Part shown: positions 962 through 32,744 of the stretch, in pieces | How the letters are laid out: each line of letters begins with the position of its first letter | Numbering within the stretch: the first letter of the stretch is position 1 | Source: Nitrospira japonica | GTDB lineage: Bacteria > Nitrospirota > Thermodesulfovibrionia > Thermodesulfovibrionales > DYHX01 | Assembly: GCA_020723925.1 (NCBI GenBank) | Contig: DYHX01000009.1 | Span: 1 to 40,618 of the forward strand | Reading direction: 5' to 3' | Length of the DNA: 40,618 nucleotides | Notes under the pieces: model-generated | Told to the model about the DNA's origin: nothing | Databases searched by the model: none | The model's input: only the letters and a program-made list of their open reading frames with translations | Program-made: the position numbers and the translations under genes

Positions 962-1906
962 ATGGCAATAACCGGACTATTAGAGCCATCTTTGAAGCTG
1001 ATCTTATTCGGCGGGAAAGGAGGCGTGGGAAAGACCACCTGTGCCTCATGTGCTGCACTGTATTTAGCAAACAACAATAAGAATACCCTGCTTATCTCCA
1101 CTGACCCAGCACATTCTTTATCGGACAGTCTGGGCAAGGAGATAGGAGACGAGATAAAGCAAATAGAAGGTGTAGATAAATTAAGTGCCATAGAGATAAG
1201 CGCAGAGAAGGCATTATCAAAGTTCAAGATAGAATACGAAGATGAGCTAAGGAGACTCTTTGATACGAGTACTTATTTAGATAAGGAGGATATAGATGCC
1301 ATACTCGGGCTGCCTATACCGGGGATAGACGAGGTAATGGGATTTAAGACGATTGTGGACTTAATTGAAGAGGGTAAATTTGACAAATATGTAGTAGATA
1401 CAGCACCAACAGGCCATGCCCTGAGGCTTTTGACCTTCCCGGAGCTTTTAGATGATTGGGTAAAGGTTATGGCAAAGATGAGATGGAAATACAGATATAT
1501 GGTTACGAGCTTTGCCGGGAAATATAAGCCTGATAGCGCTGATGATTTCCTTATGAGTATGAAAAAGACGGTTAAGAAGATTGAGGGTCTCCTGAAGGAT
1601 CAGAACAGGTGTGAATTCATTGTCGTGACCATACCAGAGGATATGGCAATTAAAGAGACAGAAAGGATGGTAAAAAGTTTGAATCAATACAGAATAAAGG
1701 TAAAGCAAATGGTAATCAATAATGTTATCCCAGAGGAGGGCAGGTGTAGTTTTTGTCAGGCAAGGAGAGAAGGGCAGGATAAATATATCGGAGAGATTAG
1801 AGGCAAATTTAGTGATTTAAATATAACAATTATCCCCCTTCAGCCTCACGAAGTAAAAGGGACAGATGCACTGAAAAACATCGGGAATATGTTCTTTGCG
1901 GGATAA
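962..1906 (+). CDS. Get3/ArsA-family ATPase
   Basis: This 314-residue soluble ATPase has the deviant P-loop GKGGVGKT (residues 18-25), a switch-I-type segment STDPAHSLSD, a switch-II-type DTAPTGHALRLL, and a CSFC pair (C262, C265). The pair matches the zinc-binding CxxC that links Get3 dimers. Get3 carries tail-anchored or hydrophobic proteins, while ArsA drives arsenite export. Here the protein is single-domain with a CxxC and no arsenic genes are nearby, so a Get3-like client-handling role fits better. GvpA-family proteins are short and hydrophobic and could be clients; that is inference. The start codon sits directly after a palindromic element. Four bases separate it from the CDC48 gene, so the two are probably co-transcribed. 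Confidence 0.85.
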   Translation: MAITGLLEPSLKLILFGGKGGVGKTTCASCAALYLANNNKNTLLISTDPAHSLSDSLGKEIGDEIKQIEGVDKLSAIEISAEKALSKFKIEYEDELRRLFDTSTYLDKEDIDAILGLPIPGIDEVMGFKTIVDLIEEGKFDKYVVDTAPTGHALRLLTFPELLDDWVKVMAKMRWKYRYMVTSFAGKYKPDSADDFLMSMKKTVKKIEGLLKDQNRCEFIVVTIPEDMAIKETERMVKSLNQYRIKVKQMVINNVIPEEGRCSFCQARREGQDKYIGEIRGKFSDLNITIIPLQPHEVKGTDALKNIGNMFFAG

Positions 1907-1909
1907 GTT

Positions 1910-4126
1910 ATGAATATGAATAAAAAAGCAGATGCCATTACTTTAAAAGTAAAAGAGGCACTACCCAAGGATGTGGGCAGGGCAATAGCCAGGATAGACC
2001 CTGAAGATATGAAGAGGATTGAAGCTGAAGTGGGCGATATTATAGAGATAAGCGGAAAGAGAAGTGCTCCGGCAAAGGCGATGCCATGTTATATGGAAGA
2101 CAGGGGCAAAGGGATTGTTCAAATAGACGGTATTCTCCGGGAGAATGCTCAGATTGGACTGGACGAGAAGGCCACTATTAAAAAAGTATCTTATAAGCCT
2201 GCTGCAAGAATTACCCTTTCGCCTATAACCATAGGCGGCTTGCGAGGTGAAAGAGACACCCGATACATTGGCCGCCTTTTAGAGGGTCTTCCCCTGATGA
2301 GAGGAGATAGAGTCAGGGCTACCCTGTTTGGGGCAAGATCTTGTGATTTTAAGGTATTAGATACTATACCTGATAAAGAGGTAGTTTTAATTCACCCCAC
2401 TACTGTTATCAAGATGGAAGTAAAGGAGGGGGAGGAAAGACGGGGACTAAAAATATCTTATGAAGATATAGGCGGTTTAAGCAGACAGATACAGAGGATC
2501 AGAGAGATGATAGAATTGCCTCTTAAATATCCAGAGGTATTTGAAAGGTTGGGGATTAATGCACCAAAGGGGGTATTTTTGTATGGACCTCCAGGAACAG
2601 GTAAGACTCTGATTGCTCGAGCAGTGGCTAATGAAACAGAGGCATATTTCACCCACATAAGCGGCCCAGAGATAATGGGCAAGTTCTATGGAGAGTCTGA
2701 AGCCCGATTGAGAGGTGTATTTGAAGACGCGCAAAAACATGCCCCAGCCATAATCTTTATAGATGAGATAGACTCCATTGCACCTAAAAGAGAAGAGATG
2801 GGCGGGGAGAAGCAGGTTGAGCGGAGGGTTGTGGCTCAGCTCTTAGCCTTGATGGATGGATTAGAATCAAGGGGCGAGGTTATAGTGATAGCCGCAACCA
2901 ATATCCCTAATGTCATAGACCCGGCATTGAGGCGGCCGGGAAGATTTGATAGAGAGATTTCTATCCCTATCCCAGATAGAAATGGCCGCTTGGAGATACT
3001 CCATATTCATACGAGGGGAATGCCCCTGGCAGAAGATGCTCGCCCCCACACTAAAGATTTTGGTGGGGGGGTAAATCTTGAAAGGTTAGCAGATATTACA
3101 CATGGATTTGTAGGCGCTGACCTGGAGGCATTAGTTAGAGAGGCAGCGATGTCGGCCTTAAGAAAGATTCTACCTGAGATCGATTTTGAGCTGGCGGATA
3201 TTCCCTATGAAACACTCATGGAGCTTCAAGTAACTATGGATAATTTCTTAGAGGCGATGAAGGAAGTAGAACCCTCTGCTATACGGGAGTTTTTTGTAGA
3301 GGTGCCTGATGTCAAATGGGAGGATGTTGGAGGATTGGAAGAGATAAAGAGAGAGCTGATGGAGGCGATTGAATGGCCACTTAAATATCCTCAGCTTTTC
3401 AAAAAGGCTTATACCCAACCACCTAAGGGGATATTGTTATATGGTGCTCCTGGAACTGGAAAGACTTTATTAGCTAAGGCAGTAGCTAATGAGAGTGGGG
3501 TTAATTTCATTTCAGTCAAAGGGCCGAGTTTGATATCGAAGTATGTGGGGGAAAGCGAGCGTGGAATCCGTGAGGTCTTTAAAAAGGCAAAACAGGCATC
3601 GCCAACAATATTATTCTTTGACGAGATAGATAGTCTTGTGCCGAGAAGGGGCTCAAGTTCCACAGATGCCCATGTAACAGAACGGGTTATAAGCCAGTTT
3701 CTTACAGAGATGGATGGCATAGAGGAACTAAAAGGAGTAGTAGTTTTAGCCGCAACCAACAGGATAGATCTGATAGACCCTGCTCTTCTAAGGAGCGGCA
3801 GGTTTGACCTTTTGCTTGAGTTACCTTTGCCAGATGAGAAGACGAGGCTTAAGATTTTTAAGATACATACAAAAAATAAGCCTCTTGATAAAGATGTAAA
3901 TTTACAGGAATTTGCGAGGCAGACGGAAAATAAGGTTGGCTCTGATATTGAGTTTATCTGCCGAAAGGCATCAATGTTGGCGATAAGGGAATATATAAGT
4001 CGGGAGTCGGGAGTCGGGAGTCGGGAGTCAGAGCTTAAGATTTCAAAGAGGCATTTTGAAGGGGCTCTTGAGTTAGTCAAAGAGCAGCTTAAAGGCATTA
4101 GTAAAGAGGATGCCGGAGATGTTTAA
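1910..4126 (+). CDS. CDC48/p97/VAT-type AAA+ ATPase with two AAA domains
   Basis: This 738-residue unfoldase has an N-terminal CDC48-N-type double-psi barrel region (about 1-185) and two AAA modules. The first has Walker A GPPGTGKT near 226 and Walker B IIFIDEID. The second has Walker A GAPGTGKT near 512 and Walker B ILFFDEID, with an arginine-finger region SGRFD. Such proteins pull apart complexes or feed proteases. Double-AAA CDC48 is typical of archaea and rarer in bacteria, and here it sits within a gas vesicle cluster. Two insertions interrupt the usual sequence: residues about 377-387 ([11 protein letters not shown]) come from a palindromic element, and [12 protein letters not shown] near 697-708 comes from a tandem repeat. 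Both keep the frame. The frame is open throughout, so the protein is probably made. Confidence 0.9.
3038..3070. repeat. Palindromic element inserted in frame in the CDC48 gene
   Basis: CCCCCACACTAAAG (3043-3056) faces TTTTGGTGGGGGG. CDC48 relatives usually read about [17 protein letters not shown] here. This gene reads LAED, then eleven extra residues, then [13 protein letters not shown]. The extra 33 bases match the core of the palindrome family seen throughout the gvp cluster. Confidence 0.7.
3998..4030. repeat. Tandem GGGAGTC repeat read in frame in the CDC48 gene
   Basis: About four copies of a 7-base unit (GGGAGTC) encode [11 protein letters not shown] close to the C-terminus of the CDC48 protein. 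The repeat lies between the second AAA module's last helices and the tail, where an insertion is likely to be tolerated. It belongs to a class of AGT-like near-tandem repeats also present in tsaD, lolA and several gaps. Confidence 0.65.
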
Positions 4127-13601: not shown

Positions 13602-14624
13602 TTACAGCGGCAGATATGCCTTGGGATTTAAATCCATTCCTGCGATATTTCCTGTAATGAAATGGTGGTATCCGGCTGCTGCTATCATGGCAGCATTGTC
13701 CGTGCATAATGCCATGGATGGGATAAAGACCTCAACGTATCTTTCTTCTCCCATCTCCCTCATCCTCTTCCTCAATTCACTGTTTGCAGCCACTCCACCT
13801 GAAAGCGTTACGCGTCTAACCCTTTCTTTTTTTATAGCCCATTCAGTCTTCCTCACAAGCACGTCAACAACAGCAGCCTGAAATGATGCGGCAATATCAT
13901 TTATGAGTTCGGAGTTAAGGGTTCGGAGTTCGGAGTCTTTGACTGCTGACTGCTGACTGCTAACTGCTATCTTTACTGCTGTTTTTAAACCGCTGAAGCT
14001 GAAGTCAAAGCTCTCAGGAAGATACGCCCTCGGGAAATCTATTGCATCATGGTCGCCGTTCTGTGCGAGCTTATCAATTATTGGCCCGCCAGGATACTCG
14101 AGTCCAAGGAGCTTTGAGACCTTGTCATAAGCCTCACCAGCAGCATCGTCCCTTGTTTTTCCAAGTTCTCTATATCTGCCAAATCCATCAATCCTGTGAA
14201 GGCTTGTATGTCCTCCGGATACAATCAGTGATAGAAACGGAAACTCTGGCCTTGGCTCCTCAAGGAATGAAGAAAATATATGACCCTCAAGGTGATTCAC
14301 TGCAACAAGTGGGATGTTTTTTGAATAGCATATTGCCTTTGCAAAGGAGCATCCAACAAGGAGTGAGCCGATTAATCCAGGCCCATTACATACAGCGATG
14401 GCAGATAGGTCTTGGAGACCCACACCAGCGCCTTTCATTGCCTCATCAACAACAGGCCATATCATCTCAATATGTCTGCGAGATGCAAGCTCAGGGACGA
14501 TGCCCCCATATTTTTCATGTATCTCTGTCTGGCTCGATACAATATTGGAGATGATATTAACGCCGTCTTCAACAACCGAAGCAGTAGTATCATCGCATGA
14601 TGTGTCTATTCCAAGTATAAGCAT
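13602..14624 (-). CDS. tsaD: tRNA threonylcarbamoyladenosine transferase TsaD
   Basis: The 340-residue TsaD (Gcp/Kae1) transfers threonylcarbamoyl from TsaB/TsaC products to A37 of ANN-reading tRNAs. Family marks include LGIDTSCDDTTASVV at the start, the iron- or zinc-binding HxxxH in NHLEGHIFSS, SLIVSGGHTSL, DDAAGEAYDKVSKLLGLEYPGGP and VTLSGGVAANSELR with a final CTDNAAMIAAAG. Residues about 219-236 (VSSQQSAVKDSELRTLNSE) are an in-frame read-through of a tandem repeat. This stretch is not in the usual family and lies in a loop before the NDIAASFQ helix. TATAAT lies only five bases before the ATG on the minus strand, so a very short or absent leader is possible. The gene is convergent with the gvp cluster. 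Confidence 0.95.
   Translation of the reverse strand: MLILGIDTSCDDTTASVVEDGVNIISNIVSSQTEIHEKYGGIVPELASRRHIEMIWPVVDEAMKGAGVGLQDLSAIAVCNGPGLIGSLLVGCSFAKAICYSKNIPLVAVNHLEGHIFSSFLEEPRPEFPFLSLIVSGGHTSLHRIDGFGRYRELGKTRDDAAGEAYDKVSKLLGLEYPGGPIIDKLAQNGDHDAIDFPRAYLPESFDFSFSGLKTAVKIAVSSQQSAVKDSELRTLNSELINDIAASFQAAVVDVLVRKTEWAIKKERVRRVTLSGGVAANSELRKRMREMGEERYVEVFIPSMALCTDNAAMIAAAGYHHFITGNIAGMDLNPKAYLPL
13905..13968. repeat. AGT-type near-tandem repeat in frame in tsaD
   Basis: Units of GAGTTCG and GACTGCT recur across 64 bases on the plus strand. In the tsaD frame on the minus strand they encode SSQQSAVKDSELRTLNSE. The repeat keeps the frame and contains no stop in it. Confidence 0.75.
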
Positions 14625-14719
14625 AAGATATTATATCTTATCTCTTTCTCTGGCTAAAAACTATAAAAATAGTCTTTATTTGCTATAATAAAAACCTTAG
14701 TTTTATAGGCATTGAATTA

Positions 14720-15185
14720 ATGAAAAAGAAAACTTACATTTTTATGCTTTCAGATAAGGACAGAAAGAGGCATGAACATTTAATACCCAAGTTGAGCGAT
14801 TTATTATACAAACCCATGACAGCCGAGACGGCTGTCCTACCCTATGGGTGATGTCGTCAAACAGTAGGACAGGCGTCTCGCCTGTCAAAGAGTGATTTAT
14901 AATCAAAGAATCGCTCAATTTGGGTAATAGATAAGGGTAAAGTCTTTGGATTTGTTGTTCAATGTTCAATACGAAATTTTGCTTGAGAATAAATGGATGC
15001 CTGTTGTGAGATCTGATACTGCTCATAGTTATGCCCACAAAGATTTGATAAACCCTGATGGCACTAAAGAAAAGATATTTATAGGAGTAGTAGACTTAAA
15101 TGAGGCACTAACCTTAGCCGATAAAGATATAAATGAAAATTGGGAGAGATATAAAGAGAGGTATTTTAGGAGGATGAAAATATGA
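14720..15185 (+). pseudogene. DUF7718-like gene broken by a MITE and a 7-base duplication
   Basis: Three pieces make one gene. ATG 14720 starts KKKTYIFMLSDKDRKRHEHLI, interrupted at the 143-bp repeat (14784-14926). After it, in the same frame, GAT at 14930 continues DKGKVFGFVVQ. There a direct duplication TGTTCAATGTTCAA shifts the frame, and reading resumes in the next frame as YEILLENKWMPVVRSDTAHSYAHKDL through to WERYKERYFRRMKI. Joined, it resembles small uncharacterised proteins I recall as DUF7718. The downstream piece has an open frame from TTG 14946 but no likely start. Its stop overlaps the next gene by ATGA, so the pair was an operon. Confidence 0.7.
14784..14926 (-). repeat. 143-bp MITE-like element, copy 1
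   Basis: The terminal repeats are TACCCAAGTTGAGCGATT (14784-14801) and AATCGCTCAATTTGGGTA (14909-14926). Inside are two short palindromes, GACAGCCGAGACGGCTGTC and GACAGGCGTCTCGCCTGTC. No open frame is present, so it is non-autonomous. It is in the opposite orientation to copies 2 and 3 (18007-18149 and 32602-32744), with nearly identical sequence. Confidence 0.9.
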
Positions 15186-15442
15186 CAAGAGAAGAATTAT
15201 TTAAAAAGAATCAACAACTTTCTACAGAATTCGAATTATATCTTCTTGATCACCCCGAGATAGAAGATAAGATTCCTGACAATGCGCTGATTGTATTAGT
15301 GCCTGATTATGACAAGGAACTTGCAGAGAAAAATATTGAGCTTGCTAAAGCTAATAAAGAACCATGGCAAATAATAGTTTATGTCAGAGTTGAAAAATTA
15401 AGGGCATCGAGAATTGAGGGGCTGACCCTTCAGGTAGCGTGA
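15182..15442 (+). CDS. DUF5647-like small protein
   Basis: This 86-residue soluble protein, MTREELFKKNQQLSTEFELY, then HPEIEDKIPDNALIVLVPDYDKELAEKNIELAKANKE, closely fits a short family I recall as DUF5647, of unknown function. It usually sits next to a small partner like the broken gene just upstream, in a toxin-antitoxin-like two-gene arrangement; that role is speculative. The start codon overlaps the upstream stop (ATGA), with AGGAGG nearby. The last ten residues or so differ from what I recall of the family, so the tail may be altered. Base composition is like the surroundings. With its partner inactivated, this gene may be drifting. Confidence 0.65.
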   Translation: MTREELFKKNQQLSTEFELYLLDHPEIEDKIPDNALIVLVPDYDKELAEKNIELAKANKEPWQIIVYVRVEKLRASRIEGLTLQVA

Positions 15443-15527
15443 TTTAACATCAAATCCATCGTTTTTCGCAAAAAGTCTGCAAAGACCAGAGTCCTCATTT
15501 TACACATGATATATCTATTCCATAAAG

Positions 15528-15568
15528 ATAAAGATAAAAAAAATAAAAATGGGACGGCAGGCTGTCCC
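15528..15568 (-). terminator. Rho-independent terminator for the CRISPR-cas transcript
   Basis: Read on the minus strand, GGGACAGCCTGCCGTCCC (15568-15551) forms a hairpin, with one G-T pair, followed by ATTTTTATTTTTTTTATC. It lies downstream of the minus-strand cas1-cas2-array unit. The 318 bases between 15443 and 15760 hold nothing else I can identify. Confidence 0.7.
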
Positions 15569-15760
15569 AAAATGTTTCCTAATTTAACCCTACTTTTATA
15601 GTCAGCCTGACAATTCGTTTTAAAAAGCCCTGATTTCATAGACGATAACAGTTTTCCAAAGAATCCGAGGTGCCAAACATGCCTATCTATGCCTCTATTA
15701 GCCGTAATTGAGGACAGTTGCCTATTCCTGTTAAGTACCCTGCTATCTTTTTTAGATTGT

Positions 15761-15834
15761 GGGGCGACCGAAGAGGAAGCAATGCACTTGAAATTCGAGG
15801 GAGTTTCAATCCACGCCCCTGCGCGAGGGGCGAC
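15761..15834 (-). CRISPR. Minimal type I-C CRISPR array: one repeat, one spacer, one repeat stub
   Basis: One intact 32-base repeat (15803-15834) reads, on the minus strand, GTCGCCCC...GTGGATTGAAAC, with the 8-base dyad CGCCCCTC/GAGGGGCG. This matches the well-known type I-C repeat. On the distal side, 34 bases away, only the last eight bases of a second repeat survive (GGGGCGAC, 15761-15768), leaving one plausible spacer of 34 bases (15769-15802). Repeat orientation and cas gene order put the leader at 15835-16015. The array has either collapsed by deletion or never grew. Confidence 0.85.
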
Positions 15835-16015
15835 GCCTTACTTACAACTTATTGTACATAAACAACTTTTTTACTGATATATGCGAACCTGTCATAAAAC
15901 AATTTATAACTCACCTCGTTGTCAAAGAACATTTCACTAACATCTTTATTTAAAACATCTTAGTGCTACTGCGAACCCTATAAGGAAATCATGTGAACTT
16001 CAGATTCGCAACGTC
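15835..16015 (-). promoter_or_regulatory. Probable CRISPR leader
   Basis: This 181-base AT-rich stretch lies between the single repeat and cas2, without an open frame, on the leader side predicted from the repeat's GAAAC end. It contains several A/T runs on both strands. No clear promoter boxes could be assigned by eye. Confidence 0.6.
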
Positions 16016-16306
16016 TTACACAATCAATGGCCCCTCCTGATCAACAGAAGCTTTTGCGCCGACATGTTCCACGCGATGCTTCCAGTTGGAGCCAAGATAA
16101 TAAAATCTCAGGCTGTCTTTCTTAGGATCAATTTCTGAGATTAACCTCTCTTTAAGCATTGTCCATTGCGCAGGGTCAACAATGCATTCAAACACAGAAT
16201 ACTGAACCCTCTGACCGTAATCCTTACATGCACGAGCAACCCTGCGCAAACGCCTCTGCCCTGCGCTGCCATCGCTTGCGACGTCATAACTAATTATCAC
16301 AAACAT
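16016..16306 (-). CDS. cas2: CRISPR-associated endoribonuclease Cas2 (type I-C)
   Basis: This 96-residue Cas2 has MFVIISYDV with the conserved aspartate at residue 8, RRLRRVARACKDYGQRVQYSVFEC, and a tail with FYYLGSNWKHRVEHVGAK typical of the I-C/I-D branch. Cas2 dimers scaffold two Cas1 dimers for spacer integration; nuclease activity is not needed for that. It is nine bases downstream of cas1, and the array lies just beyond on the same strand. The gene looks complete, with no damage seen. Confidence 0.95.
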   Translation of the reverse strand: MFVIISYDVASDGSAGQRRLRRVARACKDYGQRVQYSVFECIVDPAQWTMLKERLISEIDPKKDSLRFYYLGSNWKHRVEHVGAKASVDQEGPLIV

Positions 16307-16315
16307 ATATCATCC

Positions 16316-17347
16316 TCACTTCCATATAAACGGCGGATAACTGTCCAGATCACCCCGCAAATAACGCGCCATCAGCAAGGCCTGCGTGTGAAAGAGAAGA
16401 CCAATTGTCACCTTCTCTTTCAGAAATGGATGCATTATCTCTTCCTGCTTCCGCTTCTGATAAGCAACCAGAACAGTCTTCCTCGGATCGTCATCCATCC
16501 ATACCGCCCCCGATTCTTTCTTTTGAAATCCCTTGCCCTGCACCTGACAGAGATTAATCAATGAAAAAGCCAGACGGTCGGCAAGAAATGGACGAAATTC
16601 TTCCATCATGTCAAGCGCAAGTCCATATCTTCCCGGACGGTCTCTGTGCAGAAAACCAACAGCAGGGTCAAGACCAACGGTCTCAAGAGAAGAACGCACA
16701 TCGTGCATCACAAGCGTATACAGAAAAGACAGCAGGCAGTTTACATTATCCAGCGGAGGTCTTCTGTTTCTTTCATGAAATTTGAAATCATCTTTCTGCG
16801 AAGTAATGAGATGATCAATGACATTAAAATACGTATATGCCGATTCTCCCTCAATTCCACGCAGGACATCAAGATTCGGTTCGATCTCCAGCCTCCTCAA
16901 ATAATTGGATAATGTTTGTGAAGCACGCATAACAGCTTCTGAGTGAATCTTTTCAGAATGATCCCGTAAGGCGCGCTGAAGCACTGTGCGGCAATTAGCG
17001 ATTTTGCCTGTCAATACTGCCTTTGCTATAGAGCCAGAAGTTTTCAGGTCATCTGCCTGTCTGTACTGCTCACGCCTCAGGAGGACATTGCCTGACACGG
17101 GTCCTTGGACCTTTGCAAGGAAATCACCGTTTTCCGTCATGAAACTGATGGACACACCGCTTTCGGCGCAGAACCCTATCAGGAAGGGACTGCAGCTTAC
17201 CTGCCCGAAACAGACAATCCCGCCGAGAGTGTGCACAGGCAGACGCAGGGATGCTTCTCCGTCAATCTTGACAACAACTGTTTCACCTTCTTTTGAAAGA
17301 TATGTTCCCTGAGTTGTAACAAATAGAGTGTTAAGAAGTTTTTTCAT
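16316..17347 (-). CDS. cas1: CRISPR integrase Cas1 (type I-C)
   Basis: The protein is 343 residues, the usual length for I-C Cas1. It has an N-terminal beta domain (KLLNTLFVTTQGTYLSKEGE) and the alpha domain with metal ligands: the glutamate in GIEGESAYTYF, the histidine in VGFLHRDRPGRYGLALDMMEEFRP and the acidic residues that follow. These bind the divalent ion that drives spacer insertion. All are present and the frame is intact, so the integrase may still work. Its normal neighbour cas4 is about 900 bases away, displaced by a DUF433/DUF5615 pair and a MITE copy. No cas3, cas5, cas7 or cas8c is complete in the window. Confidence 0.95.
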   Translation of the reverse strand: MKKLLNTLFVTTQGTYLSKEGETVVVKIDGEASLRLPVHTLGGIVCFGQVSCSPFLIGFCAESGVSISFMTENGDFLAKVQGPVSGNVLLRREQYRQADDLKTSGSIAKAVLTGKIANCRTVLQRALRDHSEKIHSEAVMRASQTLSNYLRRLEIEPNLDVLRGIEGESAYTYFNVIDHLITSQKDDFKFHERNRRPPLDNVNCLLSFLYTLVMHDVRSSLETVGLDPAVGFLHRDRPGRYGLALDMMEEFRPFLADRLAFSLINLCQVQGKGFQKKESGAVWMDDDPRKTVLVAYQKRKQEEIMHPFLKEKVTIGLLFHTQALLMARYLRGDLDSYPPFIWK

Positions 17348-18006: not shown

Positions 18007-18149
18007 TACCCAAATTGAGCGATTCTTTGATTATAAATCACTCTTTGACAGGCGAGACGCCTGTCCTACTGTTTGACGACATCACCCATAGGGTAGGACA
18101 GCCGTCTCGGCTGTCATGGGTTTGTATAATAAATCGCTCAACTTGGGTA
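18007..18149 (+). repeat. 143-bp MITE-like element, copy 2
   Basis: Ends TACCCAAATTGAGCGATT and AATCGCTCAACTTGGGTA, same length as copy 1 but inverted. It lies between the DUF433 gene and cas4. Oddly, it shares the flank ACATTTAA on the left and ATAG on the right with copy 1, although the insides point opposite ways. Confidence 0.9.
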
Positions 18150-32603: not shown

Positions 32604-32744
32604 CCCAAATTGAGCGATTCTTTGATTATAAATCACTCTTTGACAGGCGAGACGCCTGTCCTACTGTTTAACGACATCACCCATAGGGTAGGACAGCCGT
32701 CTCGGCTGTCATGGGTTTGTATAATAAATCGCTCAACTTGGGTA
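32602..32744 (+). repeat. 143-bp MITE-like element, copy 3
   Basis: Same orientation and nearly the same sequence as copy 2. It begins at the metF stop (TAACCCAAATTGAG) and ends CTCAACTTGGGTA. Its insertion separates metF from a hairpin further on that looks like metF's original terminator. Confidence 0.9.

Follow-up and report, generated by a model that had tools for sequence, protein, structure and literature searches.

An interrupted DUF7718 gene in Nitrospira japonica

The window analyzed here is the whole stretch of 40,618 nucleotides at positions 1 to 40,618 of contig DYHX01000009.1 of Nitrospira japonica (assembly GCA_020723925.1), whose genome is available as a 1.87 Mb draft assembly of 106 contigs. 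Between positions 14720 and 15185, the window carries two parts of a DUF7718 gene separated by a MITE, followed by a DUF5647 gene. The following features were defined:

14720..14785, plus strand: DUF7718 5' fragment, 22 codons, MKKKTYIFMLSDKDRKRHEHLI (alignment to intact homologues)
14781..14785: target duplication TAATA, left copy (flank comparison)
14786..14924, plus strand: 139-bp MITE, IS1380-type ends around a REP-pair core (repeat search, end mapping)
14786..14805, plus strand: left terminal inverted repeat CCCAAGTTGAGCGATTTATT, identical over 16 bases from its start to the left end of the IS1380-family element in L126/L159
14818..14840, minus strand: REP palindrome 1, GTAG foot at the inner end (sequence, repeat search)
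14864..14886, plus strand: REP palindrome 2, GTAGGACAGGCGTCTCGCCTGTC (sequence; brackets a RAYT gene in L231)
14905..14924, minus strand: right terminal inverted repeat, inward reading CCCAAATTGAGCGATTCTTT; its 20 bases are the right ends in L131/L166 and L133
14925..14929: target duplication TAATA, right copy (flank comparison)
14946..15185, plus strand: DUF7718 3' fragment in a shifted frame (PF24839 positions 30-101, E 7.3e-25); the listed TTG start at 14946 is mechanical
14957..14970, plus strand: 7-bp tandem duplication of GTTCAAT (14957-14963, 14964-14970), a frame-shifting second lesion (sequence, alignment)
15182..15442, plus strand: DUF5647 gene, with an ATGA overlap with the DUF7718 end (ORF list, profile)
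18009..18147, minus strand: second MITE copy within the window, 100% identical
32604..32742, minus strand: third MITE copy within the window, 99% identical

The part downstream of the element matched the DUF7718 profile (PF24839) with 87.3 bits against a cut-off of 25, and the match covers positions 30-101 of 104, which corresponds to the 3' fragment only. The 22-residue upstream piece was compared to a set of 42 homologue rows representing 35 distinct homologues: its best score was 97, whereas none of 300 shuffled pieces scored above 46, and 16 of 21 residues are identical to homologue L186 (counted on the printed alignment). Profile and alignment together indicate that the two flanks of the element derive from a single DUF7718 gene. 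The best-scoring homologues, L186 and L192, are intact ORFs of 104 amino acids including the N-terminus, and aligning the window to both of them with MAFFT yielded gaps of exactly 144 bp (139 + 5) at the element and 7 bp at the repeated GTTCAAT. The initial annotation described a MITE inserted in a DUF7718-like gene, and this reading is supported: homologues with an intact N-terminus exist, rather than homologues starting only after the element, and in their alignment to the window the site shows a clean gap of 144 bp.

Alternatively, the 79-aa downstream ORF might be a genuine gene that starts after the element, such that nothing was interrupted. This ORF is open from the TTG at 14946 to 15185 and holds most of the DUF7718 domain, and some DUF7718 matches in other genomes likewise span only later positions of the profile. 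However, the 22-residue upstream piece constitutes the missing N-terminus and the MAFFT alignment restores the register, which makes this alternative very unlikely. A start located within the element and rescuing the 3' fragment was also considered and rejected: the first start listed in this frame is the TTG at 14946, which lies in gene-derived sequence.

The upstream frame ends with ...KRHEHLI and DKGKVFGFVVQ follows from position 14930 in the phase of the ATG at 14720. The shared frame reported initially is thus correct, but the single continuous protein proposed across the join is not, because the 7-bp tandem duplication shifts the frame: beyond FVVQ, the joined frame reads CSIRNFA followed by a stop (read from the sequence). 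The remaining DUF7718 domain continues in another frame (ORF 14946-15185). GTTCAAT is found once in both aligned homologues (L186 and L192) and twice in the window; this duplication could be an assembly error, the assembly being a draft of 106 contigs.

Boundaries and copies of the element

The element proper measures 139 bp (14786-14924, plus strand) and terminal inverted repeats are present at both of its edges. The insertion of an element of about 140 bp had been correctly recognized, but the size of 143 bp given initially must be revised to 139 bp. Searching the N. japonica genome with the element returned 47 match rows, seven of which were opposite-strand duplicates of listed places; these were removed, leaving 40 places. 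A pattern search of the same genome added four further copies, which were fetched, as well as half-copies at contig ends. The element is short (139 bp), non-coding, bounded by inverted ends and present at 40 places, as expected of a MITE.

We then removed the element from each of the 40 sites and searched the joined sequences for spanning ORFs of at least 80 amino acids. None was found at 34 of these sites, although this test is weak since insertions into decayed genes can escape detection: it missed the DUF7718 gene of the window because of the 7-bp lesion, the longest spanning ORF being 50 amino acids long and on the other strand. Spanning ORFs were detected at the six remaining sites, namely L005 (129 aa), L022 (130 aa), L172 (88 aa), L017 (85 aa), L171 and L181. 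At L171 and L181, the first start is located 14 and 13 codons before the site, respectively, and these two insertion sites look upstream of genes.

Ten copies of the same genome (L005, L017, L020, L026, L030, L055, L061, L064, L168 and L177) are located at nearly one point of another repeat, ...ATAATAAATACGTCGCATTGAAGAAATTTTGAATCCATG...; these loci were picked via the MITE.

Target duplication

We analyzed the sequences flanking the element in 44 loci of the N. japonica genome, 40 of which present both ends (L020, L025, L027 and L180 lack an end pair). An exact 5-bp duplication was found beside the ends in 31 of the 40 copies, against a mean of 2.4 (maximum 7) when left and right flanks were re-paired 500 times; the nine other copies present no exact 5-bp duplication. 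In contrast, 2-bp flank matches were found in 10 of the 40 copies, which is close to the re-paired flanks (mean 7.3, maximum 13). The duplicated pentamers start with T in 29 of 31 cases and end with A in 26 of 31, and their A+T content is 88%, relative to 57% in the flanks. The element therefore generates a target duplication of fixed length, 5 bp in 31/40 copies.

The spacing of conserved residues in DUF7718 homologues provides a second line of evidence. Excising the element with a 5-bp duplication predicts 13 residues from the H-x-H motif to the end of F-x-VQ, and excising it with a TA duplication predicts 14. The H-x-H ... F-x-VQ expression matched 15 of the 42 homologue rows, representing 12 distinct sequences, and this distance was 13 residues in every one of them; the other 27 rows did not match it and were left out of the count.

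The initial annotation had proposed a TA-type target, which corresponds to a MITE of the IS630/Tc1 type inserted at a TA dinucleotide. A TA does adjoin the CCC and GGG ends on both sides at the window site. However, 2-bp matches are near chance (10/40, control mean 7.3) and 5-bp duplications are not (31/40, control mean 2.4), joining at TA yields an interval of 14 residues instead of the 13 observed in 12 distinct homologues, and the transposases found with these ends belong to IS1380 rather than IS630 (see below). The excess of exact 5-bp duplications over the control indicates that the target is not of the TA type, and we rejected the IS630/Tc1 class based on both the duplication statistics and the homologue spacing; this origin has next to no chance of being correct.

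Origin of the ends

The end motif CCYAARTTGAGCGATT was found in 37 of the 176 genomes of the order, including N. japonica, and the reversed-pattern control yielded none among the rows listed. ORFs located beside end motifs in relatives were evaluated as possible autonomous elements, and all nine that were tested are ordinary genes. The autonomous element was found through a search for PF13701, which matched 59 of the 176 genomes of the order (49 over the cut-off).

A 459-aa transposase reading that runs up to the contig end was identified in genome G053 (L159; contig 6, CALGPO010000006.1). It matched the IS1380 equivalog NF033539 with 207.5 bits (cut-off 180), and the left end of its element is identical to the first 16 bp of the MITE. 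L161, L162 and L163 also passed the NF033539 cut-off, and L165 (338 aa translated) fell under it (140 vs 180 bits). A complete element is present in L163, a Phycisphaerae record (1704-3607), with both 16-bp ends intact and TCGAA on each side; for the insertion sequences of L161 and L165, no matching duplication was seen by eye. Finally, the right ends of IS1380-type elements in L131/L166 (one locus) and in L133 are identical to the right 20 bp of the MITE. These identical left and right ends imply that the MITE keeps the asymmetry of the two ends of the insertion sequence. An equivalog IS1380 transposase is thus found between the same ends as those of the MITE, which points to this family as their source.

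In the draft genome of N. japonica, neither PF13701 nor the L159-type transposase yielded a match. The missing IS1380 transposase may lie in contig breaks, may have been lost or may act only transiently. A type I MITE is described as sharing its genome with an insertion sequence that carries the same ends (from the part of PMC3542288 consulted). The partner transposase was not found in this draft genome and the autonomous elements were found in other genomes, so we did not assign the element to type I in the strict sense and refer to it as a MITE with IS1380-type ends. No relatives of the transposase with solved structures were found at E values up to 1.

In genome G129 (L147 and other contigs), at least nine matches correspond to only the first 27 residues of an IS1380-type transposase, and four of the matches listed begin at base 2 of their contig. 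Instead of deletion derivatives, these short matches may represent complete copies that are truncated by contig breaks.

A GTAG-type REP pair in the core

The MITE is a mosaic in which an inverted pair of GTAG-type REPs is enclosed between IS1380-type ends. The 19-base pattern GACAGSCGAGACGSCTGTC occurs 106 times in the N. japonica genome (both strands; control 0), and a sample of 295 genomes of the phylum contained it in 13 cases, N. japonica included. Some REP copies of this genome stand without MITE ends, in other repeat contexts. In another genome (G030, L231), copies of the same REP at 841 (GCAG foot, one mismatch) and 1314 (exact) bracket an ORF at 778-1311, whose 178-aa reading matched the REP-associated tyrosine transposase NF047646 with 99.8 bits (cut-off 80). 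The core of the MITE therefore presents both the foot and the palindrome of a GTAG REP, and a RAYT gene is bracketed by this same REP in L231.

The only RAYT of the N. japonica genome is a remnant scoring 59.6 bits, below the NF047646 cut-off of 80, and no REP was found near the four Y1_Tnp matches of this genome within the stretches fetched. The frame of the remnant (L232:1523-2044, contig 11) runs through four REPs, and the middle of the protein is apparently replaced by a REP pair.

These observations raise the possibility that a tyrosine transposase, and not IS1380, mobilizes the element as a REP/REPIN-type unit, given that the REPs of its core form an inverted pair with GTAG feet and that the same REP flanks a RAYT gene in another genome and also occurs outside MITE ends in N. 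japonica. However, the copies terminate at the CCC...GGG repeats, where the 5-bp duplications are located, and not at the REP; the elements with the same ends in other genomes have unrelated cores; and the four Y1_Tnp matches of the genome are devoid of REPs in the stretches fetched. We consider this possibility quite unlikely.

At L212 and L216 (also L062), the REP pair or part of it was found within another candidate inverted-repeat element, whose ends resemble CCGAAAAATAGACATAGG. Rfam yielded two sub-threshold matches over 14000-16500, one of which is on the REP pair (mir-6096, 26.4 vs a gathering threshold of 100) and was taken as a chance match.

Same ends and different cores in other genomes

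The end pair was found within 420 bp in 45 of the 87 loci tested. Elements with the same ends are present in other genomes of the order; their cores are unrelated between several genomes, as judged by eye, and are often hairpin-rich. We folded a set of 42 elements, composed of these 45 loci minus L069, L094 and L270 (whose ends were poor or paired by chance) and L070 (N. japonica itself), plus the window copy. Folding was more than three standard deviations better than shuffled sequences for 27 of the 42 cores, the other 15 falling below this mark, relative to 1 of 60 flank windows, which could not be cut for every locus; many of these 42 elements are copies of a few families, 12 of them being of the short G053 type, and they are not 42 independent cases.

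These patterns tentatively suggest that the IS1380-type MITEs of this order might be modular, with constant CCYAARTTGAGCGATT ends and genome-specific, often hairpin-rich cores, at least one of which is a palindromic repeat living outside the element. The core in the window is a REP pair normally serviced by a RAYT, and two unrelated transposition systems would then co-amplify one DNA. It is conceivable that a hairpin core is favored, for instance by bringing the ends together. If this pattern of same ends, varied hairpin cores and a REP passenger holds, it would explain the spread of REP-like palindromes without a transposase of their own, and the role of hairpin cores in the success of MITEs would become testable.

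Interpretation and comparison to known systems

The boundaries of the element, the 5-bp duplication, the identity of the gene and the clean gap relative to intact homologues were shown directly. Overall, this is an ordinary MITE insertion, and the DUF7718 gene is now doubly broken. We propose, with a probability of roughly 0.88, that the 5' part of the gene received a non-autonomous miniature element bearing IS1380-family ends, mobilized by an IS1380-type DDE transposase. This insertion would have duplicated 5 bp of an AT-rich target (approximately T-W-W-W-A) and left a DUF7718 pseudogene. The separate 7-bp tandem duplication would also break the gene, and either lesion may be the first. The IS1380 transposase is a mover that we infer from the ends, because none was found in the draft assembly. 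With the REP pair forming the core of the MITE, the REP would be copied with each jump. These results establish to which family a numerous mobile element of this lineage belongs, and it is the combination of the 5-bp duplication and the intact homologues that reveals the empty site.

The element resembles members of the IS1380 family in its inverted repeats of about 16 bp and its 5-bp target duplication: the accounts consulted report a 5-bp duplication and 16/13 bp repeats for IS1247 (PMC3281130) and a duplication of TATGA for ISEcp1 (PMC2887853). Unlike IS1380 insertion sequences, it is 139 bp long and does not encode a transposase. The portions of PMC3281130 and PMC3542288 consulted describe no IS1380-derived MITE, which is no proof of absence.

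GTAG-type REPs are described as a foot and an imperfect palindrome, arranged in inverted pairs, with inverted REPs flanking RAYT genes (PMC2817692, in the part consulted). The inverted GTAG pair of the window and the RAYT-bracketing arrangement of L231 conform to this description, but the REP pair of the window is enclosed in a DDE-type MITE, with which it moves. Published cases of nesting include QMITE2 of Coxiella burnetii, a MITE containing a GTAG REP, which differs from the window MITE by direct repeats of 7-9 bp and terminal repeats of 23-29 bp; the review describing it (PMC10969869) does not mention IS1380. GTAG-15 dimers of Anabaena variabilis are similarly nested inside long palindromes, but section 7 of PMC3733652 names no insertion-sequence family for the outer palindrome. 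Together with the description of REPs as known insertion-sequence targets (PMC1525189, consulted in part), these nested REPs (PMC3733652, PMC10969869) indicate that nesting as such is not new. The Chunjie MITE of Geobacter uraniireducens, with one copy within an operon and 37 others in intergenic regions according to the part of PMC10969869 consulted, also presents tens of copies and conserved ends, but it is a different element of 178-235 bp.

Genomic context of DUF7718 and DUF5647

The DUF7718 profile matched 42 of the 176 genomes of the order, N. japonica included. The two upstream neighbours of the gene in the window were found near none of 42 DUF7718 loci (flanks of about 1.5 kb), and no empty allele of the window locus was seen among the relatives, all of the same order. 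A DUF5647 reading is located at most 400 bp downstream on the same strand in 37 of the 42 homologue rows, some of which represent one locus fetched twice. The same arrangement is found in the window, where the DUF5647 gene is an open frame of 86 amino acids. The loss of DUF7718 from this pair also provides a natural case of a partner gene persisting alone.

No PADLOC match linking the pair to defence was obtained for the two proteins tested, and no literature on DUF7718 or DUF5647 was found. DUF7718 and DUF5647 form a recurring gene pair. Eight DUF7718 matches elsewhere contain in-frame stops, and one genome harbors eight DUF7718 matches, a pattern resembling that of a mobile two-gene module. 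Finally, a CRISPR-repeat-like sequence (15803-15836; sub-threshold Rfam match) is present in the window near cas2 and cas1 genes (16016-17347).
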